Assembly (NCBI GenBank): GCA_947482115.1
Contig: CANKII010000001.1
Location: 1-64,000 of the forward strand
Direction of reading: 5' to 3'
From: Fibrobacterota bacterium
GTDB lineage: Bacteria; Fibrobacterota; Fibrobacteria; UBA11236
DNA length: 64,000 bases
The notes under the pieces were generated by a model, which was given only the letters and a program-made list of their open reading frames with translations, did no database searches and was not told the origin of the DNA. Both the position numbers and the translations under genes were made by a program. Within the stretch, counting starts at the first letter, position 1, and every line of letters begins with the position of its first letter. Shown in pieces: positions 42,391 through 56,546 of this stretch.

Positions 42391-42423
42391 AAAAAAGCCC
42401 CCCGGATTTCTCCGGGAGGCCTT
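42391..42423 (-). terminator. Rho-independent terminator after dehydrogenase paralogue 1
   Basis: GCCCCCCGGA (42397-42406) pairs with TCCGGGAGGC (42411-42420) with one C-A mismatch; on the minus strand the hairpin is followed by six T residues. It is 28 bases past the stop of the gene above. Confidence 0.85.
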
Positions 42424-42450: not shown

Positions 42451-44775
42451 TTACAGATCCTGGCTCATGAAGATCTTGCCGTCAAACTTGTCGCCATTCA
42501 CTCCGCGGAAGGAGTAGAAGTACACGGACATATTCAGGCCCTTGGCGGTGGCTTGCGACCATTCGCCCTTGCCGGCATTGTACGTGGAATGGAAAACCGC
42601 CTGGCCGCGGATATCATGCACCACAAAGTCACCCGAAGCCAGCTGGCCATAAGGATGCAATTCAAACCCATTGCGGGTCATGCTGAAACGGATATTGTTG
42701 TAAGCCTGTGCCGGGTGGCTCGAGCGGGAAATGGCCACCGTTCCGCCGATGGCGGTGCAGGTTCCCGGGCGGGTGTTGGCTGGTGTCGCTGCGGCGAGTT
42801 TGGCTGTGGTCGCTGCGTCGAAAGCCGACTGGGAATAGCTGTCGGTGGCCCGAAAATGACCTTGCACGGCAGCCGAGGCGGCGGGGCTTGCCGCCAAAGC
42901 GATATAGGCTTGCAAACGGACATGCGGATGCGGATCATCAGCTGCACACTGATCGCTGATGGCTTGTGCGGATGCTGCAGTTTTGGGCATGGCTTTCAGA
43001 ACGTTCTCGCGTACGCCCCAAGCCGGGTGCAGAAGAAGGCTCTTCAGGACGGGATTCCAACGCGCGGAATCGACGACCAAACGGTTCAAACCTTCCAAGG
43101 TCCACAGGGCGTGAAGGACGGGTCCATCAATTCCCACGGTATCGGCCGTTTTGTGTTTTGTCAGGATGCTTTGCAGTGAATCGCCCAACTCGGCGCTATA
43201 GCCACGTCCGATGAGCAGACGCTGGGCTTGCATGCGCCAGACGAAATTCTGATTGTAGAGGGTGCCTACCAATTGTGCCGTGGTGGCATTGGTCAGGTTG
43301 AGCACGGGTTCGGTATGTCCGTCTTCCGGCACAATGCGATAAATGCGTGTGCGGCTCTTGGTGCGTAATGCATTGTTCCATGCGGCATTTGTGGATGGGC
43401 TGGCGGGGTTGTGCAGGAACAGGTAGTTGTACCAGTCCATCACCCACAGTGCACCATCGGGACCGGTTCTCACCTTGAAGGGTGCAACCCATGCATCGGA
43501 CGAGGCAAAAATGTTGGAACGGACGGGGCCCGGCATGCGAATGGCATTCCAAGTGCTTCCGTTCACGACCAGGCTGTCCTGATTGCAAAGTTTGGTGGCC
43601 CCTTCGCAAATCATGCCAAACCGGCTCCAATATTTCGTGGGCAACAACCGGGAGGTATAAAAATCATGTCCGGATACGGCTGTTGAATTCGAAGCGGGGA
43701 ATCCGTTCCTGGTACCCGTTGACGACCCTTCCCAGAGGTATAAATCAGTTGTCAATGGATAAAAAACATGGCCGTCTCCGGCACTTGAAAATGTGCAGTT
43801 GGGCCCGGTACCGGCGAGAATGCTCACGCTCGCCTGGCCGGGACGCACCACATGGTTGGAGTGGGACGAACAGGTGGCGCCGGATTGGAAAATCTGGCCG
43901 TCTTCCATTTGGCCAATGCCATGGGCGTTGCTGGGGCCGGTGCTATAGGATTGAAACACGGTGGTTGTGCTTCCAAGGGCGGTGTGTTTGAAACGCCAGA
44001 CGCCGCCAGTGGGGCAGTTTACGCCGGCGCCGCCAGTGGATGCTACTGCGCTGCAACCGCCGTTATAACCGAGGTGACCATAGTACCAGTTGTCCAAACC
44101 GGCAGTTAAGCTGTTGGTTCCACCATGGGTATCCCAAGTATTTGCAGTACTTCCCATGCCGGTGAAGAGAGCAAGAATCGTTCCGGCTGTGTCCGGATTG
44201 GTTCCGCTTTTTCCCAGAAAGTAAATGTTGGGTTCGGTTGTTACGATCACGCCGCCATTGACGACTTCAATACTGGTGGGCATGACCAATCCGTCATAGA
44301 ACACTTTGTAATTGTCGAGGGAACCATCGCCATCGGTGTCTTCCAGAATGACGATGCGGCCTTTTCCACCCGTGAGACGGTTGGTGGGGTTCGGGTCGTT
44401 TGCGATCGCGGGATAGTCACGGGGTTCCACGGCCCAGACGCGGCCGCGTTCATCGAAGGTGAAATACATCAGATAGCTGAGGGCCGGCAACGGGCCCGGA
44501 GTCAATTCGGAAGCCACAAGCTCAGCCCGAAGGCCGGAAGGAACCTGAATGCAATTGATGGATTGTGCTCCGGTCAGCGGGTCCTGCAGTGTGTTGGCCG
44601 GATAGGTGCCTGTCGGAGCGGGCTTCACCGGAAACTGACTCCAGTTATCACCCGAGGGCGCCGTGTAGCGGGTCAAGGTGGGACATGCACCGGACTTGAG
44701 AATGGGAGGGGCACTGAAAACCATACTCACAATTGTCAATATCAGGGGGGTGACTATTGAGGGCAGATTTTTCAT
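42451..44775 (-). CDS. Secreted sorbosone-dehydrogenase-type propeller protein with HEAT-like region and sorting domain, paralogue 1
   Basis: 774 residues from ATG 44775 (AGGAG 7 bases before it; an upstream TTG is rejected). A signal peptide (about 1-24) is followed by a beta-propeller of the L-sorbosone dehydrogenase/membrane-bound dehydrogenase type (TIGR02604-like; YLMYFTFDERGRVWAVEPRD, GRIVILEDTDGDGSLDNYKV with an acidic calcium-type loop, TSIEVVNGGVIVTTEP). HEAT-like helices cover about 490-670 (VLKAMPKTAASAQAISDQCA, HPHVRLQAYIALAASP). The C-terminal 80 residues resemble a T9SS sorting domain (VHDIRGQAVFHSTYNAGKGE). Proteins of this family often end in a cytochrome domain in Planctomycetes; here no CxxCH is present. 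Probably a surface sugar-oxidising enzyme; the cofactor is unknown. Confidence 0.75.
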   Translation of the reverse strand: MKNLPSIVTPLILTIVSMVFSAPPILKSGACPTLTRYTAPSGDNWSQFPVKPAPTGTYPANTLQDPLTGAQSINCIQVPSGLRAELVASELTPGPLPALSYLMYFTFDERGRVWAVEPRDYPAIANDPNPTNRLTGGKGRIVILEDTDGDGSLDNYKVFYDGLVMPTSIEVVNGGVIVTTEPNIYFLGKSGTNPDTAGTILALFTGMGSTANTWDTHGGTNSLTAGLDNWYYGHLGYNGGCSAVASTGGAGVNCPTGGVWRFKHTALGSTTTVFQSYSTGPSNAHGIGQMEDGQIFQSGATCSSHSNHVVRPGQASVSILAGTGPNCTFSSAGDGHVFYPLTTDLYLWEGSSTGTRNGFPASNSTAVSGHDFYTSRLLPTKYWSRFGMICEGATKLCNQDSLVVNGSTWNAIRMPGPVRSNIFASSDAWVAPFKVRTGPDGALWVMDWYNYLFLHNPASPSTNAAWNNALRTKSRTRIYRIVPEDGHTEPVLNLTNATTAQLVGTLYNQNFVWRMQAQRLLIGRGYSAELGDSLQSILTKHKTADTVGIDGPVLHALWTLEGLNRLVVDSARWNPVLKSLLLHPAWGVRENVLKAMPKTAASAQAISDQCAADDPHPHVRLQAYIALAASPAASAAVQGHFRATDSYSQSAFDAATTAKLAAATPANTRPGTCTAIGGTVAISRSSHPAQAYNNIRFSMTRNGFELHPYGQLASGDFVVHDIRGQAVFHSTYNAGKGEWSQATAKGLNMSVYFYSFRGVNGDKFDGKIFMSQDL

Positions 44776-44876
44776 GTTCAACTCCTTTTTTTCATCTTAC
44801 GAAGCAAAATATTAGATCAAAAACAAGTTTTCTCGCATTCCCTGATGATTTTTTTTTGGAAAAAATGGCAATCGAA

Positions 44877-47207
44877 TCAAAAGTCCTGATTGGTAAGGAT
44901 TTTGCCGTCGAACTTGTCGCCATTCACTCCGCGGAAGGAGTAGAAATACACGGACATGTTCAAGCCTTTCGCAGTGGCTTGAGACCATTCGTGCTTGCTG
45001 GCGTTGTACGTGGAATGGAACACAGTCTGACCGTGGATGTCGTACACCACGAGTTCACCCGAGAGCTGGCCGTAGGGATGGAGCTCAAAACCATTGTGGT
45101 TTGTGGTGAAACGGATGCTGTTGTAGGCTTGAGTCGGTTTGTCGGATCCTGAGATGGCCACGGTTCCGCCAATCGCGCTACACGTTCCGGGGCGGGTGTT
45201 TGCGGGAGTTGCAGTCGCAAGTTTGGCGGTCGTCGCCGCATCGAAAGCGGAAGTTGCCGAAGCATCTGTCGCACGGTAGTGACCTTGGACTGGACCCGAA
45301 GGCGCCACAGGACTTTCACCAAGCGCCACATAGGCTTGCAAACGAACATGGGCATGCGGGTCATCCGTTGCGCATTGATCATTGATGATTTGCGCGGAGA
45401 TTGCTGTTCTGGGCATCGCCTTGAGCACGTTTTCACGAACACCCCAAGCCGGATGAAGGAGGAGGCTCTTCAAGATCGGATTCCAACGCGCAGAATCCAA
45501 GACAAGGCGGTTCAACCCTTCAAGGGTCCAGATGGCGTGAATGACAGGACCATCAATGCCGACGACATCCGAAGTTTTGTGGTTGGTCATTATGCTCTGC
45601 AAGGAGTCGCCCAGCTCGGTGGTGTAACCTTTGCCAATCAGAAGGCGTTGGGCCTGCATGCGCCACACAAAATTCTGGTTGTAGAGGGTGCTCACCAATT
45701 GCGCTGTGCTGGCATTGGTCAGGTTGAGTATGGGTTCGGTAGGAGTATTGTCAGGAACAATGCGATACAGGCGGGTGCGCGTTTTTGTACGCAATGCGTT
45801 ATTCCACGCCGCATTGGTAGACGGGCTGGCGGGGTTGTGCAGGAACAGATAGTTGTGCCAGTCGAGCACCCACAGGGCGCCATCCGGACCGGTTCTCACC
45901 TTGATGGGCGCCACCCATGCATCGCTTGATGCAAAGATGTTGGAGCGCGTGGCACCGGTCATGCGAACGGCAGACCAAGTGCTGCCGTTTTCGACCATGC
46001 TGTCCTGATTGCACAGCTTACTTGCGCCTTCGCAAACGAAAGAGAAGCGGCTCCAGTACTTTTGAGGCAGCAAGCGGGAGGTGTAAAAGTCATGGCCCGA
46101 GGATGCGGTGGTGTTGGATGTATAGTTTGCGACGAATCCGTTTGCGGCATTTGGGCCTCCAGCAGTCGAACCTTCCCACAAATAGCGATCTCCGGTGATG
46201 GGATAATAGGTGCCGCTGGTCTGAATGTTCAATGCCGCCACACCGCGACGGATGGCGTGATTGTTGTGAGGTGTACCCGTGGCTCCGGACTGAAAAATCT
46301 GTCCGTCTTCCATCTGTCCCACACCATGTGCATTCGCGGGGCCACTGGTGGAGAATGCCTGGAAGGTGGTGGTCAGGCCTCCAATGGCCGTATGCCGGAA
46401 ACGCCATACGCCTCCCGTATTGCAAGTTACTCCGCCAACACTGCAACCGCCGTTATAGCCCAGATGGCCATAATACCAGTTGTCGAGGCCTGAAGTAAGG
46501 CTGTTGGTTCCGCCGTGCGTATCCCATGTATTGCCCGTGCTTCCCATGCCCGAAAACAAGCTGACGACCGTTCCCGCAGTATCGGGATTGGTGCTGCTTT
46601 TGGGAAGGAAATAAATATTTGGTTCCACAGTTACGATCACACCGCCGTTGACCACCTCAATGCTGGTAGGCATGACCAAGCCGTCATAGAAAACCTTGTA
46701 GCTATCCAGAGAGCCGTCGCCATCGGTATCTTCGAGGATGACGATGCGGCCTTTTCCACCGGTCAGGCGGTTGGTGGGGTTCGGATCGTTGGCGATCGCC
46801 GGGTAGTCGCGGGGTTCTGCAGCCCAGACGCGACCGCGTTCGTCGAAGGAGAAATACATCAGATACCCCAGACTTGGGGCGGGGCCGGGAGTCAGTTCCG
46901 AGGCAACCAGTTCCGCATGGAGGCCGGCGGGAACCTGAATGCAGTTGATGGATTGTGCCGTTGCAAGAGGAGCTTGCTGCGTGCAGTTTTGCGGTGTTCC
47001 CGTAGCGCAAGGAACGCTCTTGGGGATGATGTTGCTGTCCGGTACGGAGTGACCGTTGGCAAACTGGCTCCAGTTGTCACCCGTGGGTGGGGCGTTGCGA
47101 GTAAAGGCGGGGCAGGGACCGGATTTGAGAATGGGCGGAGTGCTGAGACCCACTCCCCAGAGTGCCAAGGTAATCACTGCAAATTTTGCGACGGTTGGGT
47201 TGGCCAT
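44877..47207 (-). CDS. Secreted sorbosone-dehydrogenase-type propeller protein, paralogue 2
   Basis: 776 residues from ATG 47207 (GGAG upstream, then a signal peptide with KFAVITLALWGVGLS). It has the same plan as paralogue 1, with long identical blocks (NDPNPTNRLTGGKGRIVILE; NYLFLHNPASPSTNAAWNNA) and near-identical DNA around the C-terminus, so the two are a fairly recent tandem duplication. The main difference is a longer N-terminal segment (about 35-75) with extra cysteines (CATGTPQNCTQ). The sorting-type domain ends ...YSFRGVNGDKFDGKI. The gene lies just downstream of the ThuA terminator and must have its own promoter or depend on read-through. Confidence 0.75.
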   Translation of the reverse strand: MANPTVAKFAVITLALWGVGLSTPPILKSGPCPAFTRNAPPTGDNWSQFANGHSVPDSNIIPKSVPCATGTPQNCTQQAPLATAQSINCIQVPAGLHAELVASELTPGPAPSLGYLMYFSFDERGRVWAAEPRDYPAIANDPNPTNRLTGGKGRIVILEDTDGDGSLDSYKVFYDGLVMPTSIEVVNGGVIVTVEPNIYFLPKSSTNPDTAGTVVSLFSGMGSTGNTWDTHGGTNSLTSGLDNWYYGHLGYNGGCSVGGVTCNTGGVWRFRHTAIGGLTTTFQAFSTSGPANAHGVGQMEDGQIFQSGATGTPHNNHAIRRGVAALNIQTSGTYYPITGDRYLWEGSTAGGPNAANGFVANYTSNTTASSGHDFYTSRLLPQKYWSRFSFVCEGASKLCNQDSMVENGSTWSAVRMTGATRSNIFASSDAWVAPIKVRTGPDGALWVLDWHNYLFLHNPASPSTNAAWNNALRTKTRTRLYRIVPDNTPTEPILNLTNASTAQLVSTLYNQNFVWRMQAQRLLIGKGYTTELGDSLQSIMTNHKTSDVVGIDGPVIHAIWTLEGLNRLVLDSARWNPILKSLLLHPAWGVRENVLKAMPRTAISAQIINDQCATDDPHAHVRLQAYVALGESPVAPSGPVQGHYRATDASATSAFDAATTAKLATATPANTRPGTCSAIGGTVAISGSDKPTQAYNSIRFTTNHNGFELHPYGQLSGELVVYDIHGQTVFHSTYNASKHEWSQATAKGLNMSVYFYSFRGVNGDKFDGKILTNQDF

Positions 47208-47220
47208 TTTAAGATACTCC

Positions 47221-47252
47221 AAAGAAAAAAGTGCCCCGGTTTCCCAGGGCAC
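47221..47252 (-). terminator. Rho-independent terminator after ThuA-like gene
   Basis: GTGCCCCGG pairs with CCAGGGCAC around TTTC, with one mismatch, and on the minus strand the hairpin is followed by TTTTTTCTTT. It lies 36 bases past the ThuA-gene stop and 14 bases ahead of the next coding start. Confidence 0.75.
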
Positions 47253-47288
47253 GTGTTTTGTTTAAAACTCGTTGCAGTTCAAAGTCGT

Positions 47289-48686
47289 CTAGTTCAGGTT
47301 CACTCTGGCCGTAATGGTGCCAGACTTCGGAGACTCTACGCGGACAAAGTAAATGCCTTTGTTCAAGCGCGGAGTTTCAAAGGTTTTGCCCAATCCACCC
47401 ACAGCGCTGTTTTGCGCCCAGCGCTTGCCATTCAGATCCGCAATCATGATCTGATAGGTTCCCGCTTCGGGAGTCGCGACGCGAATGCCTTTGTTGGAAA
47501 GGCTGATGCCGTTATAGTTCTTGCCTTTGGTGAGCATGACGTTAACGGTGGTTCCGGTGCAAGGATTGGCAAGGTCAAATCCGGGTGTCAGGACTGAAAC
47601 CGTGGCTTCAGGGTTGTATTCCGAATTCGTATTGTCCGTGCAACCCTTGTAGTCGCGGGCGAGATAACGAATCAGGTTCCAGTTTATTTTTTCGGCTACG
47701 CTGTCGTTAACGGTGACACCGCCCACTTTGCGGGTGCGAACGTAAACATCGCCATGTCCCATATCCTGATACACTGTCAACCCGTTGCCCACGTGACGGC
47801 CCCAGACCTGAACACGGTCGCCCATTTTTGCGACGCCAGTGGTCCAGTAGTAAACGCTTTCATCCATGGACATGATCACAAGAACGGGTCCAAAAGCGTA
47901 TCCGTCAAAAGTTTGTGCACCCTGATTACGGACATAACCACGGTAGTTGTACCATTCGTCGCCAATGCTGTCCCAAACACCTGCATTCACAGTGCCGTTC
48001 ATGACACCGTTATTCGTGGGAAGGTTTTTGAAGATTCCCTGAAGTTCCGGGTTCCTCTTGCCATGGCTGATCGTGGACAGCACATGACTCGCGGAGATTG
48101 CACCGGTATTGGGGGGATACTCGCCCGCCTGCACGGAATCCACATAAAGTCTTGCCATGTGCGGATCGGGATCATGGGCAAGGTACTGGCGAACCATGAC
48201 ACGTGCCAGCCAGCGGCAATTGGCATCCGTCAAATTTTCGGCACCGGAAGTGGGGCAGGGAACATAAGCGGCTGCGGCATGTGAATTCAGAAGTCCTTTG
48301 CCGGAGTCCTGAATAAAAACCTTGGTAGCCGCCAGAGATGTTGCGTTTTGAAGGACGTCACCATCTCCGTTGCAGAATACGGCGACATCAACACCGTTCA
48401 ATGTGGTGGGTGTGATATAGGTCTGGGTTGTGCCCACATCCAGTTGAAAACCATATTTATTCGCCAAGCGAGTCATGGAATTCACGAGGTAGGTTTTGTT
48501 GTGTCCGCCCAAGGTGTAATTGTACAGCAGTACTCGGTGTACATGATTGAAGCGGCTCAATTGGTACGGATTGGCAGGATTACGAGCTACCGTCTGCTGT
48601 GCCGTCGAATCCGTCATCGCGCCAAGGCCGAGAATTACGGCGCAAGCGATTGTTAAATGCTTTAAAAAATTCGCAGTCGTTTTCAT
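47289..48686 (-). CDS. Secreted ThuA-domain protein with C-terminal sorting-type domain
   Basis: 465 residues from ATG 48686 (AGGAGAG upstream). A signal peptide (about 1-30, ending STAQQ) precedes a ThuA/glutamine-amidotransferase-like domain (about 45-370): HRVLLYNYTLGGHNKTYLVN, VDVAVFCNGDGDVLQNA, FGPVLVIMSMDESVYYWT, and VWGRHVGNGLTVYQDMGHGD, which matches the ThuA pattern of a hydrolase-like fold lacking an obvious amidotransferase Cys. The C-terminus (about 380-465) is a sorting-type domain (VATPEAGTYQIMIADLNGKR, GIYFVRVESP). ThuA helps use trehalose in rhizobia together with the Gfo/Idh/MocA protein ThuB; the same pair lies here, with ThuA sent outside. Confidence 0.78.
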   Translation of the reverse strand: MKTTANFLKHLTIACAVILGLGAMTDSTAQQTVARNPANPYQLSRFNHVHRVLLYNYTLGGHNKTYLVNSMTRLANKYGFQLDVGTTQTYITPTTLNGVDVAVFCNGDGDVLQNATSLAATKVFIQDSGKGLLNSHAAAAYVPCPTSGAENLTDANCRWLARVMVRQYLAHDPDPHMARLYVDSVQAGEYPPNTGAISASHVLSTISHGKRNPELQGIFKNLPTNNGVMNGTVNAGVWDSIGDEWYNYRGYVRNQGAQTFDGYAFGPVLVIMSMDESVYYWTTGVAKMGDRVQVWGRHVGNGLTVYQDMGHGDVYVRTRKVGGVTVNDSVAEKINWNLIRYLARDYKGCTDNTNSEYNPEATVSVLTPGFDLANPCTGTTVNVMLTKGKNYNGISLSNKGIRVATPEAGTYQIMIADLNGKRWAQNSAVGGLGKTFETPRLNKGIYFVRVESPKSGTITARVNLN

Positions 48687-48797
48687 ATTTCTCTCTCCTT
48701 TAAGAACAACTTTACAGTCTCCCCACACGGCGGTAAATCTACCATCGTCTGCGAGATTTCACCCGCAGAAAATGGTACTTTTTTGAAACTCAGTTAG

Positions 48798-48829
48798 TAA
48801 AAAAACTGTTACAAGCGAAAACCGCTAAC
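48798..48829 (-). terminator. Probable terminator after outer-membrane barrel gene B
   Basis: On the minus strand GTTAGCG pairs with CGCTTGTAAC (with a two-base bulge) around GTTTT, followed by AGTTTTTTTACT. It is close to the stop codon of the 48835 gene. Confidence 0.55.
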
Positions 48830-48834
48830 ATCCC

Positions 48835-50220
48835 TTAAAAAAGCCCAAAATCCAGTCGGACGACAAAATACCAGTCCTTGACTTTCAGGGTCACGGGCTG
48901 GCTTGTGGGCTTCACTTCCGGTCCTGTAGGCTGCCGTTGATGATCGCTGGCCGCTTGTGCCGATAACGCTATACCTGTCGTAATTTTGCGAGTCGCGTAA
49001 ATCGACCAGTGAAAGTCATCATTTGTCAGGCTTTTTTTATTCGCCGTAGCAGCCGAGTCCGTATAATCGTAAGGATTGGTGTTCAAATTCAAGGGAAGGG
49101 GCAGAGCGGCATAAAATGGCATTCCCACTGTGTTAGGGAATCGCGACTTGTGGTATTCCCCCTCGACAGAAAGCCGGGTGAGCAAGCCAAAGGTGGGAAG
49201 GTTAATGCCGACCATCATGGGCATGCGATCCATAATCTTGTCGTAGTAGTAAGGCTGATTCTTTATGCCGAGTATTGCCATTTCGGCATAAAGTTTGAAG
49301 TCTCCGGAATGAATCATACCCGTTCCGAGTAGAGTGCCGATATCGAAGGATGCTCTGGCCATGGTCTTGAAGCCTCTGAAAGTGTAAAAGCCAACCTGAT
49401 CCGGATGGTCCCTCGGAGTAAATTTCGTCACGGAGTCTTCAGCATTCAGAATGGGCAAGTTGGTGATTTTGCTATACCCATTGTTCAACGTATCCTTGGG
49501 AGCCAAGCGATCGGGATTCAATGAAATCGCATGCGACCAAACAATACCTCCGCCCACTTCCAGATAAGAGGTGGGTTTGTAGGTGATCACGTATCCGGGT
49601 GAGAAATCGCTTGTGGGCTCATAGTCGCGTTCCATAAACAACGTGAAATCGTGGGTAAGTTTGCCGTTAAACGTCGGCAAAGTGAATTCAGCGCCTTGTG
49701 CCAGGTAGCTTGCAGAATTGATATACGACCATCCCCCGGTTACTAAAAATCCGGGATAGGTTCCGCTTCGATAGAGGTATTCCCCCAAGTTTGTGGCATC
49801 GGTGTATTTGGTTGAAAACAACCCGAACTTCAACGTGGCATCAGGCTTCTCTGGATTTCCAAACGAGTAGATTCCCTCGGCCTGGCCCACTCCCGGTCCA
49901 AATTCAAGAAGGCGTTCCTTGGAGTGTTCTCCCGGTTGAAGGGGATACCAAAACAAGCCACCAATAGTGACATAGATGTCGAGATTCTTGTTGTACGTTC
50001 CCGAAGTAGTCAGATAAACGCCAGTGCGAGAAAGGGTTTCTTTCCTTACCGTGGCGCCTTCGGATTGTCCCTTCACGATTTCACCGAAATCGATCGAGGC
50101 GCCCACCACCTTGGGATGCATTTCCACTTGGGCATAGGTTGTGGCCGTGAACGAAAAACAAACGGCGCACAGCGCCGCTGCAAACGGAACCATTCGGTTT
50201 TTGATGATGCGTCTTTTCAT
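48835..50220 (-). CDS. Predicted outer-membrane beta-barrel protein B (paralogue of 50233 gene)
   Basis: 461 residues with a signal peptide (about 1-31, ending TTYAQ) and a barrel-like body ending in Phe (VRLDFGLF). It shares long blocks with the adjacent 50233 gene, which is also 461 residues: GWSYINSASYLAQG, DFTLFMERDYEPTSDFSPGY, AISLNPDRLAPK, KNQPYYYDKIMDRMPMMVG and EYHKSRFPN. I do not recognise a named family; the shape suggests a porin or substrate-specific channel. The gap to the upstream paralogue is 12 bases, so the two form one operon. Location beside ThuA and dehydrogenase-like genes suggests uptake of a sugar product. Confidence 0.7.
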   Translation of the reverse strand: MKRRIIKNRMVPFAAALCAVCFSFTATTYAQVEMHPKVVGASIDFGEIVKGQSEGATVRKETLSRTGVYLTTSGTYNKNLDIYVTIGGLFWYPLQPGEHSKERLLEFGPGVGQAEGIYSFGNPEKPDATLKFGLFSTKYTDATNLGEYLYRSGTYPGFLVTGGWSYINSASYLAQGAEFTLPTFNGKLTHDFTLFMERDYEPTSDFSPGYVITYKPTSYLEVGGGIVWSHAISLNPDRLAPKDTLNNGYSKITNLPILNAEDSVTKFTPRDHPDQVGFYTFRGFKTMARASFDIGTLLGTGMIHSGDFKLYAEMAILGIKNQPYYYDKIMDRMPMMVGINLPTFGLLTRLSVEGEYHKSRFPNTVGMPFYAALPLPLNLNTNPYDYTDSAATANKKSLTNDDFHWSIYATRKITTGIALSAQAASDHQRQPTGPEVKPTSQPVTLKVKDWYFVVRLDFGLF

Positions 50221-50232
50221 TCGGAAGCTCCC

Positions 50233-51618
50233 TTAAATTCCGAATTCAAGCCGAATGATGTAATACCAGTCGCTGGGACGTGAAGTGACGGGAATCGCGG
50301 CGGGCGTCGCGTAAGGTGAATTGAAATTGCGCATATAGTCGTTGGCCGCCTGTGCATAAACAGAAATCGCGCTGTTGATATGACGCCGGGCGTACAAGGT
50401 CCATTTCACGTCATCTTTCTTCAGCGCTGTCGCCAAGGAGTCCTTGGATGCAGCTGTGGCATAGCGTGGATCGTTCACATCATACACATAGGGATCTCCG
50501 TTGCTGACCGGAATGGCAGTTTGAGAGCCAATCACGCTTCCAATATCGTTGGGGAAGCGGGACTTGTGGTATTCCATTTCAAATGCAAGCTTGTCAAGCA
50601 GGCCAAAGGTGGGGATGTCCAGTCCTCCCATGATGGGCATACGCTCGGATTTCTTGTTGTAGTAGTAAGGCTGGTTTTTCACACCCAGCAGCGCAATTTC
50701 GGAGTAGAGTTTGAAATCCCCGGGGTGAATGCCGTCCACTTTGAGCAGGGTGCCAATGTCCAAGGAGACCCGGGCCATTGTTTTAAATCCCTTGAAGGTG
50801 TAATAACCGCAAGGACACGTGTCTGCAGGAGTACCATGTGTAATAGGCCGACCTGAAGACAAGCTGTATTTGTTTCCTTCTTCCGCTTTTGGCGTCAATC
50901 TGTCGGAATTCAATGAAATGGCGTGCGCCCAGACGACACCGGCTCCGACTTCAAAAAAAGAAACGGGTTTATAGGATACGACATAGCCCGGAGAAAAATC
51001 ATTGGTGGGCTCAAGATCCCGTTCCATGAAAAGGGTAAAATCATTATTCAACTTGCCTCCCAATAACGGAACAGTCAGGCTCATGCCTTGAGCCATGTAG
51101 CCTGCGGAATTGATGTAGGACCAACCCCCGGTGACTATGGCGGCGGGGTAGGTTCCACTGCGAAACAGGTATTCTCCCAGGTTCACGGATTCGGAGTATT
51201 TGTGGTTGAACAAACCGAATTGCAATTTGGCAACCGGATTTTTGGTATCGCTCCCGAAGGAGTAAATCCCCTGTGCCTGGCCGACACCGGGTCCGAAATA
51301 GATGCGCTTACTTTGGAAAGACGTTCCCTCGGGCAACCCAAACCAGAAGAGGCCGCCGACGGTTAATTGAATGGTTAGACGGTCGTTGTAGGTGCCTGAT
51401 TCGGTAAGGTATACGCCGGTTCGAGTCAGCTGCTGATTGTCGCCCTTTCTTCCGCTGGAGAAAACCTCGCCATCGTAAATGGTTCCTTTTACGATTTGGC
51501 CGAGATCTATGCTGGCTCCAATGGCCGTGGGATTTCTGACAAGTTCCGCATGGCCCAAGTTCAAGGCGAGCAACCCCGTAAATGCAAAAACACTCAACCC
51601 GAAGGCATTCCTATTCAT
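50233..51618 (-). CDS. Predicted outer-membrane beta-barrel protein A
   Basis: 461 residues from ATG 51618 (AAAGG before it; the frame stays open 66 bases upstream without a signal sequence). A signal peptide covers about 1-25 (ALNLGHAEL). The body is made of alternating strands rich in Tyr, Phe and Gly, with the blocks listed for its paralogue. It is the first gene of the minus-strand set, reading away from the Gfo/Idh/MocA gene across a 365-base divergent regulatory region. Two porin-like paralogues in tandem could have different substrate preferences. Function is unknown. Confidence 0.7.
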   Translation of the reverse strand: MNRNAFGLSVFAFTGLLALNLGHAELVRNPTAIGASIDLGQIVKGTIYDGEVFSSGRKGDNQQLTRTGVYLTESGTYNDRLTIQLTVGGLFWFGLPEGTSFQSKRIYFGPGVGQAQGIYSFGSDTKNPVAKLQFGLFNHKYSESVNLGEYLFRSGTYPAAIVTGGWSYINSAGYMAQGMSLTVPLLGGKLNNDFTLFMERDLEPTNDFSPGYVVSYKPVSFFEVGAGVVWAHAISLNSDRLTPKAEEGNKYSLSSGRPITHGTPADTCPCGYYTFKGFKTMARVSLDIGTLLKVDGIHPGDFKLYSEIALLGVKNQPYYYNKKSERMPIMGGLDIPTFGLLDKLAFEMEYHKSRFPNDIGSVIGSQTAIPVSNGDPYVYDVNDPRYATAASKDSLATALKKDDVKWTLYARRHINSAISVYAQAANDYMRNFNSPYATPAAIPVTSRPSDWYYIIRLEFGI

Positions 51619-51983
51619 TTCAAACCTTTCCGAAATGGTATTACTGACCTTAGCCAGTAGTCGTTTTGCAGAGATTTTCCGCATCCTTCAGCCTTTCTTT
51701 AAAATGCGCCAATGGATTCACAGGAATCATCCCTTTTGGTACTTGTATGGCCTTAAGGAAGCGATCCTATATGATTCGGTGAATATAATGCGGCTTTTGG
51801 CACTGCACTTGAGGAAAGTTTATCTGCGGGAATATTTTGGTAGATTTTTTCAAATTTAACTTTTATTTAACAATGAAAACTCTATCTATACGTGCAACTC
51901 ATTGAGTCAACTTGAATTGACGCTTTTTGCGCAAAAAAGCAGCTTAACACAACTTTAATCAACGCGTTTGGGAGGATTTTTTA
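51619..51983. promoter_or_regulatory. Divergent intergenic region, 365 bases, AT-rich
   Basis: No credible gene is seen here. It separates the barrel genes (minus) from the Gfo/Idh/MocA gene (plus) and must carry both promoters. A TATAAT hexamer lies at 51784-51789 on the plus strand, without a good -35 box. A perfect palindrome TTTTTGCGCAAAAA lies at 51924-51937, about 50 bases before the plus-strand start, and is a candidate operator. Confidence 0.5.
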
Positions 51984-53117
51984 ATGTCAGCGCAAAAGAA
52001 ATACAACGTTGCAATTGTCGGACTCGGATTCGGTGCAGAGTTTATTCCCATCTACAAACGGCACCCTTTGGGTAACATGTACGCAGTTTGCCAGCGCAAT
52101 GTGGAAAAGATGAAAGAAATTGCCGACGCTCACGGAATTGAAAAACGTTATTCGAATTATGAGGAAGTCTTAAAGGATCCCAATGTGGACTTTGTTCACA
52201 TCAATTCTCCCATTCCGGATCACGGTTGGATGTCCATTCAAGCCCTGAAGGCCGGAAAGCATGTCGCTTGCACCGTACCCATGGCCACGAATCTTGAAGA
52301 ATGCAAACAAATCGTGGAGCTGGTGAAACAGACGGGCCTGAAATACATGATGATGGAAACCGTGGTCTATTCACGCGAGTATCTGTTCATGAAGGAGCTG
52401 CGTGACAAGGGCGAACTGGGCAAGCTGCAATTCATGCAGGCCAGTCATCAGCAGGACATGGATGGATGGCCCGGATATTGGCCGGGCCTGCCCCCGATGT
52501 TTTATGCCACTCATTGCGTGGGTCCCATGGTGGGGCTTGCTGGGACAGACGCGGAGTACGTTTCCTGTTTCGGTTCCGGCACCATTCGCGAGGAAATGAT
52601 TCCGATTTACAATTCCCCCTTTTCCATTGAGACCGCGCATATCAAATTCCGCAATTCGGATCTCTCTGCACGCATCATCCGCTCCCTGTTCGATGTGGCG
52701 CGTCAGTATCGCGAAAGCATCGATGTATATGGAACGAACAAGGCGGTGGAATGGCCGTTGATTGAGGGTGAGGATTTGGTGGTGCATACTGCGAAGAAAC
52801 CGGAACATGAAATCGCGGAGCGGGTAAAGTGTCCCGACTTTGCGCATTTGCTGCCGAAGGAAATCCAATCGTTTACCACCAAGGGTGTTTACAGCGATGA
52901 GGGCGAAACTCATCTGTCCTTCATGCAGGGTGGGGGACACGGAGGTTCACATCCCCATTTGGCGAATGAGTTTCTGCAGGCACTGGCACAGGATCGGCAG
53001 CCGTTTCCGAATGCGACGCAATCCGCCAATATCACCTGCGTGGGAATTCTTGCGCATGAATCGGCCATGAAGGGCGGCGAAATTATTCGCCTTCCCGAAT
53101 GGACGTTTGCGAGTTAA
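51984..53117 (+). CDS. Gfo/Idh/MocA-family oxidoreductase
   Basis: 377 residues behind GGGAGG. The N-terminal Rossmann domain binds NAD(P) (VAIVGLGFGAEFIPIYKRHP). The site where the family normally has EKP reads CTVP (KHVACTVPMATNLEECKQIV), so the catalytic lysine is missing, which occurs in some subfamilies. The C-terminal domain has MMMETVVYSREYLFMKELRD and ATHCVGPMVGLAGTDAEYVS, with the conserved His. The family oxidises or epimerises sugars and inositols. Sitting opposite a ThuA-protein gene it resembles ThuB in 3-keto-sugar metabolism. It probably acts in the cytoplasm; no signal peptide. Confidence 0.9.
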   Translation: MSAQKKYNVAIVGLGFGAEFIPIYKRHPLGNMYAVCQRNVEKMKEIADAHGIEKRYSNYEEVLKDPNVDFVHINSPIPDHGWMSIQALKAGKHVACTVPMATNLEECKQIVELVKQTGLKYMMMETVVYSREYLFMKELRDKGELGKLQFMQASHQQDMDGWPGYWPGLPPMFYATHCVGPMVGLAGTDAEYVSCFGSGTIREEMIPIYNSPFSIETAHIKFRNSDLSARIIRSLFDVARQYRESIDVYGTNKAVEWPLIEGEDLVVHTAKKPEHEIAERVKCPDFAHLLPKEIQSFTTKGVYSDEGETHLSFMQGGGHGGSHPHLANEFLQALAQDRQPFPNATQSANITCVGILAHESAMKGGEIIRLPEWTFAS

Positions 53118-53210: not shown

Positions 53211-54305
53211 ATGACACAACCGAATTCATGGAAACCCCCGTGGCCTTTTATTCTGCTCAATCTTTCCGTCCTGCTCGTGTTCTGGACGTGCACCAGCCCT
53301 ATCGCCGTGGGTGTTGCCGTTGTTCTTTATTTCGTGCGCATGTTTGGAATCACGGGAGTCTATCACCGTTACTTTTCACACCGCACCTACAAGACCTCGC
53401 GTTTCATGCAGTTTGTCCTGGCTTTTCTGGGGAACACTTCCGGTCAACGCGGGCCTTTGTGGTGGGCGGCGCATCACCGTCATCACCATGCCCATTCCGA
53501 GACGGCTGAAGATCCACATTCTCCGGTGCAGCACGGTTTCTGGAACAGTCATGTGTTGTGGTGGGGCCGCGCTCAGAACATGCCCACGCGCCTGCATTTG
53601 ATCAGGGACTTCGCGAAATACCCCGAACTTGTTTTTCTCGATCGCTTTGATTCCGTGGCTCCCGTTTTCCTGGCCGTTGTAACGTATCTGTTTGGTGCGG
53701 GGCTGCATCGATGGGCTCCGGGATTGCATACCAATGGAATGCAAATGCTGGTATGGGGGTTTTTCATCTCCACGGCCATCCTGTTTCACGGAGTAGCCAC
53801 GATCAATTCATTGGCTCATGTGATCGGAAGCCGCCGTTTTCGGACAACGGATCAAAACCGGAACAATTTCTTCCTCGCCTTGCTGACGATGGGGGAGGGA
53901 TGGCACAACAATCATCATCATTATCCGAACAGCGCCCGCCAGGGGTTTTATTGGTGGGAAATCGACCCGAGCTATTACGCGCTGCGGGTTTTGGAATGGC
54001 TGGGGTTGGTGTGGGATCTCAAGCCTGTTCCGGAACGGATTCTTGAACAGGGTGTTATTTCATCGCATAAAAAAAGCCCCCCGATTCGCGGGAGGCTTTT
54101 GAAGAGATTTGGAAAGGCTTTACAGTTCCGAAGCCAGGGTTATGCGGCCCTTGAACGTGTCACCGTTTATGCCGTGAAAGGTGTAGAAGTACACAGGGAT
54201 ATTGAGTCCCTTGGCAACCGGCGCGGACCATTCCGCCTTTTTGGCGTTATACACCGAACGGAATACGATGTTGCCGCGAATATCATAGACGAGCATTTCA
54301 CCTGA
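53211..54305 (+). CDS. Membrane fatty-acid (acyl-CoA) desaturase with unusual C-terminal tail
   Basis: 364 residues. The three histidine boxes that bind the di-iron centre are present: HRYFSH (52-57), HHRHHHAH (88-95) and HNNHHHYP (232-239). Membrane helices lie at about 15-45, 65-78, 150-165 and 180-200. Such enzymes put a cis double bond into acyl chains (often delta-9) to adjust membrane fluidity. The family normally ends near residue 283. The remaining about 80 residues run through the terminator (54068-54100) and 186 bases into the antisense of the 54120 gene, so the last part probably arose by loss of a stop codon. Confidence 0.88.
   Translation: MTQPNSWKPPWPFILLNLSVLLVFWTCTSPIAVGVAVVLYFVRMFGITGVYHRYFSHRTYKTSRFMQFVLAFLGNTSGQRGPLWWAAHHRHHHAHSETAEDPHSPVQHGFWNSHVLWWGRAQNMPTRLHLIRDFAKYPELVFLDRFDSVAPVFLAVVTYLFGAGLHRWAPGLHTNGMQMLVWGFFISTAILFHGVATINSLAHVIGSRRFRTTDQNRNNFFLALLTMGEGWHNNHHHYPNSARQGFYWWEIDPSYYALRVLEWLGLVWDLKPVPERILEQGVISSHKKSPPIRGRLLKRFGKALQFRSQGYAALERVTVYAVKGVEVHRDIESLGNRRGPFRLFGVIHRTEYDVAANIIDEHFT
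54068..54100 (-). terminator. Terminator of dehydrogenase paralogue 3, inside the desaturase 3' end
   Basis: GCCCCCCG pairs with CGGGAGGC with one C-A mismatch, around ATTCG; on the minus strand it is followed by seven T residues. It is almost a copy of the terminator at 42391 after paralogue 1. On the plus strand the hairpin is translated as the desaturase tail. Confidence 0.85.
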
Positions 54306-56546
54306 GGACAGGCCGCCGAAGGGTTTGAGCTCAAATCCATTACGGAAAAACCTGAAACGGAGATCATGGCGTGCGTAGGAACGGGTGTCAGATTCGCCAG
54401 AGCGGATGGAAACAGCCTGGGTGTAGGACGGGCAGGTGCCTGGACGCGCGGTGCCGGCGACTTCCGTCACTTTGCTGGCGCCCGCAGCAATGAATGCTGC
54501 GTTCGCATAGTTCGTTGCTCCTGTGCCAGTGCCGTCAGTGTTCTTGAAGTCCGTAACCATCGTGGCTGGGGTGCTCGGGGCGGGGTTGGCGATCAAAGCG
54601 GCGAGCGCCTGAATACGGACGTGCGCGTGCACGTCGTTAACCGCGCACTGCGCAACGATAGCGTTGGAAGAGGCCACAGTGGGGGGCATCGCCAAGAGGG
54701 CGTTGCGGCGCACCGTCCAAGCGGGGTGCAACAGAAGCTTTTTGAAAGTGGTGTCCCAGCGCGTCGGTTCAACTTTAAAGGTGTATTGCTTCATACCGGC
54801 AACGACCCACATGGCGTGAAGAACCTGTGGACTGGTGCCGAAGGCTGTATCGACTGAGCGGTTGTTATTGAGGATGGACTCCAATTGGGTAAGCAAGTCG
54901 CTGCGCTCAGTACTGGTGTAGGTGCGGTTAAGCAGAAGCCGCTGGGCTGTCGTTCTCCAGAGCATATTTGGGTGTCCCAAAGCGTTAACTAAATCAGATA
55001 TTGAAGCGTTGGACAAATTCAGCACTGGCTGAGTGGATCCATCAGAGGGCACAATACGGTAGATACGCACACGTGATTTCTCGCGAAGGGCATTGCGCCA
55101 AGCCGCATTTGTTGAGGGGCTGGCGGGATTGTGGAGGAACAAGTAGTTATACCAGTCGAGAACCCACAGCGCACCGTCAGGGCCGGTACGAACCTTGAGA
55201 GGTGCAACCCAAGCATCGGAACCTGAGAAAATGTTCGAAACTGCAGGGCTGCCGTAGATACGGTTGGCACGCCAAGTACTGCCGTTAAGGGTCATGTAAT
55301 TCTGGTTGCAAAGGTGGGTCATACCTTCGCAGACGAAGGAATTCTTGCGATAAGTTGAGGGCAGAAGCGTGGCTGTATAGAAGTCGTGGCCCGAAACGGC
55401 GGACTCATTGGTGCCATAGACCGTCGCACCATTGAAGTTGTAAGTGCGGGTAGTCGAACCTTCCCAAGCGTAATAGTCGCGCGTGGAAGGGTAGAAGTTG
55501 TGAATGGAATCTGTTTCTGTATAGTTGGTGCGGAGAATATTCGTAACGTTCCCGCCAAGGCGAACAACATGATGGGCGTGATTCGTGACCGTTGCCTTGG
55601 AAGCGAACCACTGGCCGTCTTCAGTCTGTCCGATGCCATGGGAGTTGGTGCCGGAATTGCCGGGACCATAAACCTGAACAAGGTTTGTGTCCGAGCCGAT
55701 TAAGTTGGATTTGAAACGCCAGATACTGCCAGTGGAACATCCTGAAGCGGTGTTACCGTTGGTGACCAACGGGGTACCGCAGCCATTGTAGCCGACACCT
55801 CCGTAAACAAAATTGTCAATGCCCCAAGTCAGGCTGTTGGTCTGGCCATGAGAGTCATAATTTTGGCTCGACGAGCCCATGTTGTCAACAACTTTGACAG
55901 GCGTTCCCCCAGCTGTGTCGGGATTACTCAGGCTGGCCGGAATGAAATAGATGGAAGGAGGTACGATGGCGATTACACCACCTTTAACCAGCTCAACACT
56001 GGTGGGCATGGTGAGGCCTGTGTAGAAAACTTTGTAGTTATCCAGGGAGCCGTCACCGTCCACGTCCGTCAGGATGAGGATGCGGCCGCGGCCGGCTAAA
56101 CGGTCGGCGGGAATGCCGTTGGTGGTGGTTATACCCGGAGATGTGACATCCGGCATACCCGTGGCATCATGTGTATATGGATAATCGCGGGGCTCAACAG
56201 CCCAGACGCGGCCTCGTTCATCAAAAGTGAACTCCATGATATAGGCCAAGGGCAATGTGGAGTTCAGGCCAGGTGTGAGTTCCGAGGCCAGCAATTGGGG
56301 TTTCAATCCTGTGGGGACGGTAATGCAATTGATGGAGGCATCGGGGCTCAGCGGGTTTTGAACAGTACCGCTGGTAATACCACCACCGGGTTTGACCGGG
56401 AACGTCCCCCAGTTATCGGAACTCGCCGTGTACCGCGACAGAGTCGGACACGGACCCGTTTTCTCTAAAGGTAGAGCACTTAAACCCATACTCCAAAGAG
56501 CCATTACCAATATGGCGACTGATTTGTGAAAAATATCCTTTTTCAT
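54120..56546 (-). CDS. Secreted sorbosone-dehydrogenase-type propeller protein, paralogue 3
   Basis: 808 residues with a signal peptide (about 1-24, FHKSVAILVMALWSMGLSAL). The plan matches paralogues 1 and 2: propeller (YIMEFTFDERGRVWAVEPRD, ILTDVDGDGSLDNYKV with acidic loop, TSVELVKGGVIAIVPP, NYLFLHNPASPSTNAAWRNA), HEAT-like helices (LLLHPAWTVRRNALLAMPPT, HAHVRIQALAALIANP) and a C-terminal sorting-type domain (MLVYDIRGNIVFRSVYNAKK). It is clearly more divergent than the 42451/44877 pair and stands apart, past the desaturase. No CxxCH or quinone-binding motif is recognised. It shares its terminator type with paralogue 1. Confidence 0.75.
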   Translation of the reverse strand: MKKDIFHKSVAILVMALWSMGLSALPLEKTGPCPTLSRYTASSDNWGTFPVKPGGGITSGTVQNPLSPDASINCITVPTGLKPQLLASELTPGLNSTLPLAYIMEFTFDERGRVWAVEPRDYPYTHDATGMPDVTSPGITTTNGIPADRLAGRGRILILTDVDGDGSLDNYKVFYTGLTMPTSVELVKGGVIAIVPPSIYFIPASLSNPDTAGGTPVKVVDNMGSSSQNYDSHGQTNSLTWGIDNFVYGGVGYNGCGTPLVTNGNTASGCSTGSIWRFKSNLIGSDTNLVQVYGPGNSGTNSHGIGQTEDGQWFASKATVTNHAHHVVRLGGNVTNILRTNYTETDSIHNFYPSTRDYYAWEGSTTRTYNFNGATVYGTNESAVSGHDFYTATLLPSTYRKNSFVCEGMTHLCNQNYMTLNGSTWRANRIYGSPAVSNIFSGSDAWVAPLKVRTGPDGALWVLDWYNYLFLHNPASPSTNAAWRNALREKSRVRIYRIVPSDGSTQPVLNLSNASISDLVNALGHPNMLWRTTAQRLLLNRTYTSTERSDLLTQLESILNNNRSVDTAFGTSPQVLHAMWVVAGMKQYTFKVEPTRWDTTFKKLLLHPAWTVRRNALLAMPPTVASSNAIVAQCAVNDVHAHVRIQALAALIANPAPSTPATMVTDFKNTDGTGTGATNYANAAFIAAGASKVTEVAGTARPGTCPSYTQAVSIRSGESDTRSYARHDLRFRFFRNGFELKPFGGLSSGEMLVYDIRGNIVFRSVYNAKKAEWSAPVAKGLNIPVYFYTFHGINGDTFKGRITLASEL

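Follow-up and report, generated by a model that had tools for sequence, protein, structure and literature searches.

The locus described here occupies positions 42451 to 53117 of the window, i.e. of the whole 64,000-nucleotide stretch of contig CANKII010000001.1 (phylum Fibrobacterota) that was analysed. It consists of two conserved modules which meet here, namely two tandem genes for predicted outer-membrane barrels (BAR1 and BAR2) with a gene for a ThuA-domain protein, and propeller genes with a divergent gene for a Gfo/Idh/MocA protein (Gfo). The conserved entity is the pair formed by barrels and a ThuA or DUF1080 protein; the propellers and Gfo make up a second module, which joins the barrel pair at this place. 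As the best explanation, to which we assign an even chance of being right, the locus would follow a strategy like that of a polysaccharide utilisation locus without SusC/D, in which secreted sugar-modifying proteins work with dedicated barrels, joined to the Gfo-propeller module. All six open reading frames (ORFs) named in a sequence-only reading of this DNA were confirmed, five on the minus strand and Gfo on the plus strand:

42451..44781, minus strand: propeller 1, DUF7133/TIGR02604 with HEAT repeats and a C-terminal beta domain, secreted, without the motif CxxCH
44877..47207, minus strand: propeller 2, same family as propeller 1; likely start ATG 47207, listed ORF from GTG 47252
47289..48686, minus strand: ThuA-domain protein, secreted, with a putative tail of type A of the type IX secretion system (T9SS); probable start ATG 48686, listed ORF from 48728
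48835..50220, minus strand: BAR1, predicted outer-membrane barrel with a C-terminal beta signal
50233..51618, minus strand: BAR2, second barrel of the pair; probable start ATG 51618, listed ORF from 51684
51685..51983, strand not applicable: divergent intergenic region, kept in the related genome G002, there between Gfo and a propeller
51984..53117, plus strand: Gfo/Idh/MocA protein, cytoplasmic, of a subfamily with TVP replacing EKP

For the barrels, a family profile was built from an alignment of 21 copies and searched in the genomes of the phylum Fibrobacterota and in plasmids. In the host genome (2.7 Mb, 99% complete), which probably belongs to a relative of Fibrobacter, it found 23 barrel genes in 12 clusters, and 10 of the 12 clusters lie no more than 501 bp from a ThuA or DUF1080 gene, whereby genes reaching E 0.001 were counted. 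Under random placement, the chance of pairing is about 0.05 per cluster and the overall binomial p is about 8e-12, a value which is optimistic, since a single DUF1080 gene borders on two clusters that are neighbours, and loci that are duplicates of each other do not count as independent. The two remaining host clusters adjoin proteins which match the sorting-tail model only (Pfam). A local ThuA model had placed ThuA beside these clusters as well (12/12), which was rejected because Pfam finds just the sorting tail there. For eight relatives, 20 stretches were picked by barrel position and their stop-to-stop frames were searched with core-domain models excluding the tail; for 19 of 23 barrel clusters, ThuA or DUF1080 was found at a distance of no more than 250 bp, and three of the four exceptions sit at a stretch or contig end. 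DUF1080 genes, which the sequence-only reading had proposed to look for nearby, are absent from the window, unlike in a locus of the BT2156-2160 type; 13 are present elsewhere in the genome, several of them beside paralogous barrels. The genomes of a distant class carry only one or two ThuA genes each; in G136 and G137 of this class, about 140 bp separate ThuA from a barrel, and an aldo/keto reductase is present as well. In G131/G132 the distance between ThuA and barrel is 5-6 kb, a twin-arginine-translocation-type aldo/keto reductase adjoins ThuA, and a sugar-type transporter of the major facilitator superfamily (MFS) adjoins the barrel, all four genes falling within about 10 kb.

BAR1 and BAR2 share 55% identity. 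They reach the cut-off of no Pfam or NCBIfam family, including that of the TonB-dependent SusC-type barrel, which sets them apart from SusC/SusD polysaccharide utilisation loci; neither do they match PorP_SprF at E up to 1 in these databases, or any PDB sequence, PHROG or plasmid. This suggests a previously undescribed family, predicted to be located in the outer membrane. By inspection, the N-termini carry an export signal. At the C-terminus of 68 barrels, hydrophobicity at positions 0/-2/-4/-6/-8 is 0.96/0.84/0.85/0.71/0.99, and positions -1, -3 and -5 are mostly polar or small. An alternating hydrophobic pattern at the C-terminus is the signal recognised by the beta-barrel assembly machinery (BAM). 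A crude count of amphipathic windows was about 2 standard deviations above shuffled sequences. Several further families and classes of the phylum contain strong profile matches, whereas the Fibrobacter-like family has no more than borderline ones. In a tree, BAR1 and BAR2 fall into separate clades across genomes, which indicates that the pair, its order and the identity of its members are ancient.

The two modules were followed through ten genomes of the family, i.e. the host genome (G000) and nine relatives. The arrangement BAR2-BAR1-ThuA is present in G000, G001, G002, G004, G007, G008 and G009, and G003 has one barrel beside ThuA at a contig end; with G003 counted, the unit recurs in 7/9 relatives. 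Gfo adjoins either this unit or a propeller in 6/9 relatives. In G007 it opens the barrel operon, as does a contig-end fragment of it in G008; in G004 some 2 kb separate the two, and in G002 it faces two propellers. Furthermore, it is the first gene of an operon with AP_endonuc_2, a triosephosphate isomerase (TIM)-barrel family, and a propeller in G005, G006 and a second locus of G008. The intergenic DNA which separates Gfo from BAR2 has a match in G002, in the stretch separating Gfo from a propeller, with a local score of 39, compared to at most 28 for 300 shuffles, and the Gfo-facing control region matched none of nine other upstream regions. The genes for tyrosyl-tRNA synthetase (TyrRS) and YqeY flank the block in both genomes. 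Taken together, the shared region and flanks imply that the barrel-barrel-ThuA unit was gained at (or, in G002, lost from) a site with an old divergent control region on one side and the propellers on the other. Unrelated surface-protein genes lying side by side by chance, with no joint function, would also explain why the modules are separate in G001, G002, G004, G007 and G009 and why the flanking genes are housekeeping genes. For the locus as a whole we regard this as very improbable, given a pairing of barrels with ThuA/DUF1080 far above chance across genomes and a conserved divergent control region; it is viable only for the link between the modules.

According to the preferred explanation, the first module (BAR2-BAR1-ThuA) would be one of about 12 host loci in which a secreted protein, in most cases ThuA or DUF1080, is paired with one to three barrels. 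The substrate of this partner would be an oxidised sugar or glycoside of the 3-keto type, met at or close to the cell surface, and the product would cross the outer membrane through the cognate barrels; barrel loci would then fulfil the role of SusC/D loci by means of parts unrelated to these. In the second module, a secreted propeller would oxidise or cleave a glycoside outside, and the cytoplasmic Gfo-family protein would act on the product inside. We consider it possible, at a little less than an even chance, that the barrels form a phylum-level family of outer-membrane transporters which, with secreted ThuA/DUF1080 proteins, makes up a SusC/D-independent class of loci for oxidised (keto) sugars, with two ancient barrel types per ThuA locus.

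The keto-sugar chemistry is favoured by four precedents together, i.e. DUF1080, BT2158, ThuAB and an Agrobacterium operon. The DUF1080 protein BT2157 of Bacteroides hydrolyses 3-ketotrehalose, and for a Caulobacter DUF1080 protein action on 3'-ketolactose was proposed (PMC9007349); BT2158 is a glycoside 3-dehydrogenase of the periplasm (PMC11300592). The Bacteroides pathway shares with the present loci the DUF1080 and Gfo/Idh/MocA families and the secretion of DUF1080 proteins. It differs in that the outer-membrane part is here an unrelated barrel family, ThuA takes the place of DUF1080 at the window locus and the window Gfo is cytoplasmic and devoid of the catalytic lysine. Earlier work connected ThuAB with 3-keto derivatives of trehalose and of related sugars (Ampomah 2013, as cited in PMC10433430). 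In rhizobial thuEFGKAB, which handles trehalose via such derivatives, a ThuA-domain protein is likewise encoded close to a Gfo/Idh/MocA gene, whereas the window ThuA is secreted with a sorting tail, the locus contains no ATP-binding cassette (ABC) transporter and Gfo belongs to a lysine-less subfamily. The Agrobacterium operon encodes a TIM-barrel eliminase (AtOGE), a putative hydratase (AtHYD) and a Gfo reductase, which act on 3-keto-glucosides and their products (PMC10628242). Its combination of Gfo with an AP_endonuc_2-like TIM barrel resembles the Gfo-TIM-propeller operons of the relatives, but the window has no TIM-barrel gene, and oxidation is performed there by GlycDH and here, if at all, by an uncharacterised propeller.

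Several findings weigh against the preferred explanation or weaken the sequence-only reading. Clustering of the homologues, as expected in the sequence-only reading, was recovered (7/9 and 6/9 relatives), but not as a single conserved system: all parts are together in the window genome alone, the modules being adjacent in 1/10 genomes. The catalytic lysine of the EKP motif, the position of which was set by alignment to glucose-fructose oxidoreductase, is found in 0/11 Gfo orthologues, which have TVP or TIP instead; a Gfo protein of this kind is not necessarily a dehydrogenase and may bind its ligand instead of oxidising it. The haem motif CxxCH is found in 0/25 propellers of the window type. 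For ThuA, we know of no established reaction. The barrel fold is predicted from sequence pattern, AlphaFold models being unusable (the model of BAR1, calculated from a two-sequence alignment, had a predicted local distance difference test (pLDDT) value of 27 and was discarded). The substrate, trehalose or another sugar, is likewise putative.

The Rossmann domain of Gfo was recognised with 84.8 bits (Pfam cut-off 24), and no signal peptide was seen by inspection, hence the protein is read as cytoplasmic. The analogy to ThuA-ThuB drawn in the sequence-only reading is weak, since in all 11 orthologues the subfamily is without the EKP lysine. Searching plasmids, only distant relatives of Gfo were found. 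The one inspected, a Gfo/Idh/MocA protein of a Kitasatospora plasmid (L165:5992-7188; 30% identity), encoded beside a sugar ABC transporter, is also without the lysine and has SVP in place of EKP, which extends the variant subfamily to Actinomycetota.

Propellers 1 and 2 match DUF7133 with E 1e-70 (Pfam) and TIGR02604 with 135-144 bits (NCBIfam cut-off 122.2) and are 78% identical; a third propeller of the window (see below) is 55% identical to propeller 1. They have the N-terminal domain of TIGR02604, the PVC-type heme-binding CxxCH family, but not the CxxCH motif after which that family is named, so that electrons from any oxidation would need another carrier. In PDB sequences, the propellers matched HEAT-like designed repeats and, weakly, a sorting tail, and nothing else. 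An AlphaFold model of propeller 2 from a five-sequence alignment (pLDDT 33) was discarded. The TIGR02604 protein Lac161_ORF7 hydrolyses lactose (PMC5342196), an alternative activity which had not been considered in the sequence-only reading. It has the N-terminal domain and HEAT repeats in common with the window propellers, which lack its cytochrome c motif and carry a C-terminal sorting-type beta domain. By analogy to this protein, the only assayed TIGR02604 protein found in the literature, the propeller reaction may be oxidation or cleavage. Weak DUF7133 propeller genes are also located directly upstream of barrel-less DUF1080 genes (L117:8425-11264 and L118:7984-11112), and a GH39-type glycosidase gene (L138:6120-8270) lies near a propeller in G004.

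If the propellers were C1 sorbosone or aldose dehydrogenases, the barrels could import aldonates for consumption by cytoplasmic sugar-acid enzymes. A GSDH protein following two propellers in G007 would fit such a route, as would the genes of LarA-type racemase, DUF4147/MOFRL, mandelate-racemase-type, aldehyde dehydrogenase and NAD_binding_2 proteins which adjoin some ThuA-barrel loci. With no sugar-acid enzymes in the window, and with the DUF1080 pairing indicating hydrolysis of keto-glycosides, we consider this route improbable.

The window ThuA matches PF06283 with 41.2 bits (Pfam cut-off 33.4) and has the motifs W...GxG...GH and DEWY in common with other ThuA proteins; no relative was found on plasmids. 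Sorting-type C-termini had been claimed for ThuA and both propellers. The T9SS type A tail predicted for ThuA scores above the cut-off (26 bits, cut-off 23) and the propeller tails match CHU_C weakly (12-15 bits, cut-off 27). Such tails are the basis of the main rival explanation, in which the barrels would be cognate shuttles or anchors for tail-bearing secreted proteins, similar to PorP/SprF, and not sugar porins. Most barrel partners are tail-bearing, with a weak-or-better type A tail in 8/10 scanned barrel-adjacent partners, which also weighs against the preferred explanation, and the neighbours of the two host clusters without ThuA/DUF1080 match by their tail only. A precedent exists in Flavobacterium, where sprF, a PorP-like gene, adjoins sprB, and where type B cargo has PorP-like proteins as its anchor (PMC9143113); outer-membrane barrel genes adjoining genes for tail-bearing secreted proteins are thus common to both cases. 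However, the tails found here resemble type A, not type B, and the barrels show no sequence match to PorP/SprF. Tail-less partners occur, i.e. the barrel-adjacent ThuA of G136 and G137 and, according to the tail models, two DUF1080 partners in the host genome. Furthermore, the gene next to the barrel in G131/G132 encodes an MFS transporter, and the choice of partners tracks the enzyme families ThuA and DUF1080, not the tail. We therefore judge a shuttle or anchor function unlikely, while still assigning it a real share of probability.

Other barrel loci of the host genome differ in composition. L110 (G000:C3:358000-377999) contains five ThuA genes, two barrels, an aldehyde dehydrogenase, a NAD_binding_2 dehydrogenase and a sigma-54 response regulator. 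In L112 (G000:C2:289000-308999), two units in succession each have a single DUF1080 gene with three barrels after it, and in L113 (G000:C10:23000-42999) two barrels and ThuA are followed by a LarA (lactate-racemase-type) protein and a DUF4147/MOFRL protein. In G136, a GH39-type glycosidase gene (L176:15028-17253) is found near the ThuA-barrel pair.

Further features of the region are:

42394..42423, minus strand: terminator-like hairpin 3' of propeller 1, 13 pairs
47231..47252, minus strand: terminator-like hairpin with 9 pairs (7 GC) and a T run, module boundary between ThuA and propeller 2
54120..56546, minus strand: propeller 3, between a fatty-acid desaturase gene and the TyrRS gene

Propeller 3, beyond Gfo and the desaturase gene, was absent from the sequence-only reading. 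ATG 47207 is the likely start of propeller 2, as the listed GTG 47252 falls within the terminator-like hairpin and GGAG precedes the ATG. The desaturase ORF (53211-54305) has an antisense overlap of about 185 bases with the 3' end of propeller 3, and its Pfam domain stops at residue 252 of 364. A search of the region against Rfam gave no match, and promoter-like sites occur there at chance level.

How sugars cross the outer membrane of Fibrobacter-type bacteria without SusC/D is poorly known. The barrel family tied to ThuA/DUF1080 is a concrete candidate for this passage. For ThuA, the pairing gives a cellular setting as a secreted protein adjoining a predicted outer-membrane channel, and it brings about 12 loci per genome under a single testable hypothesis.

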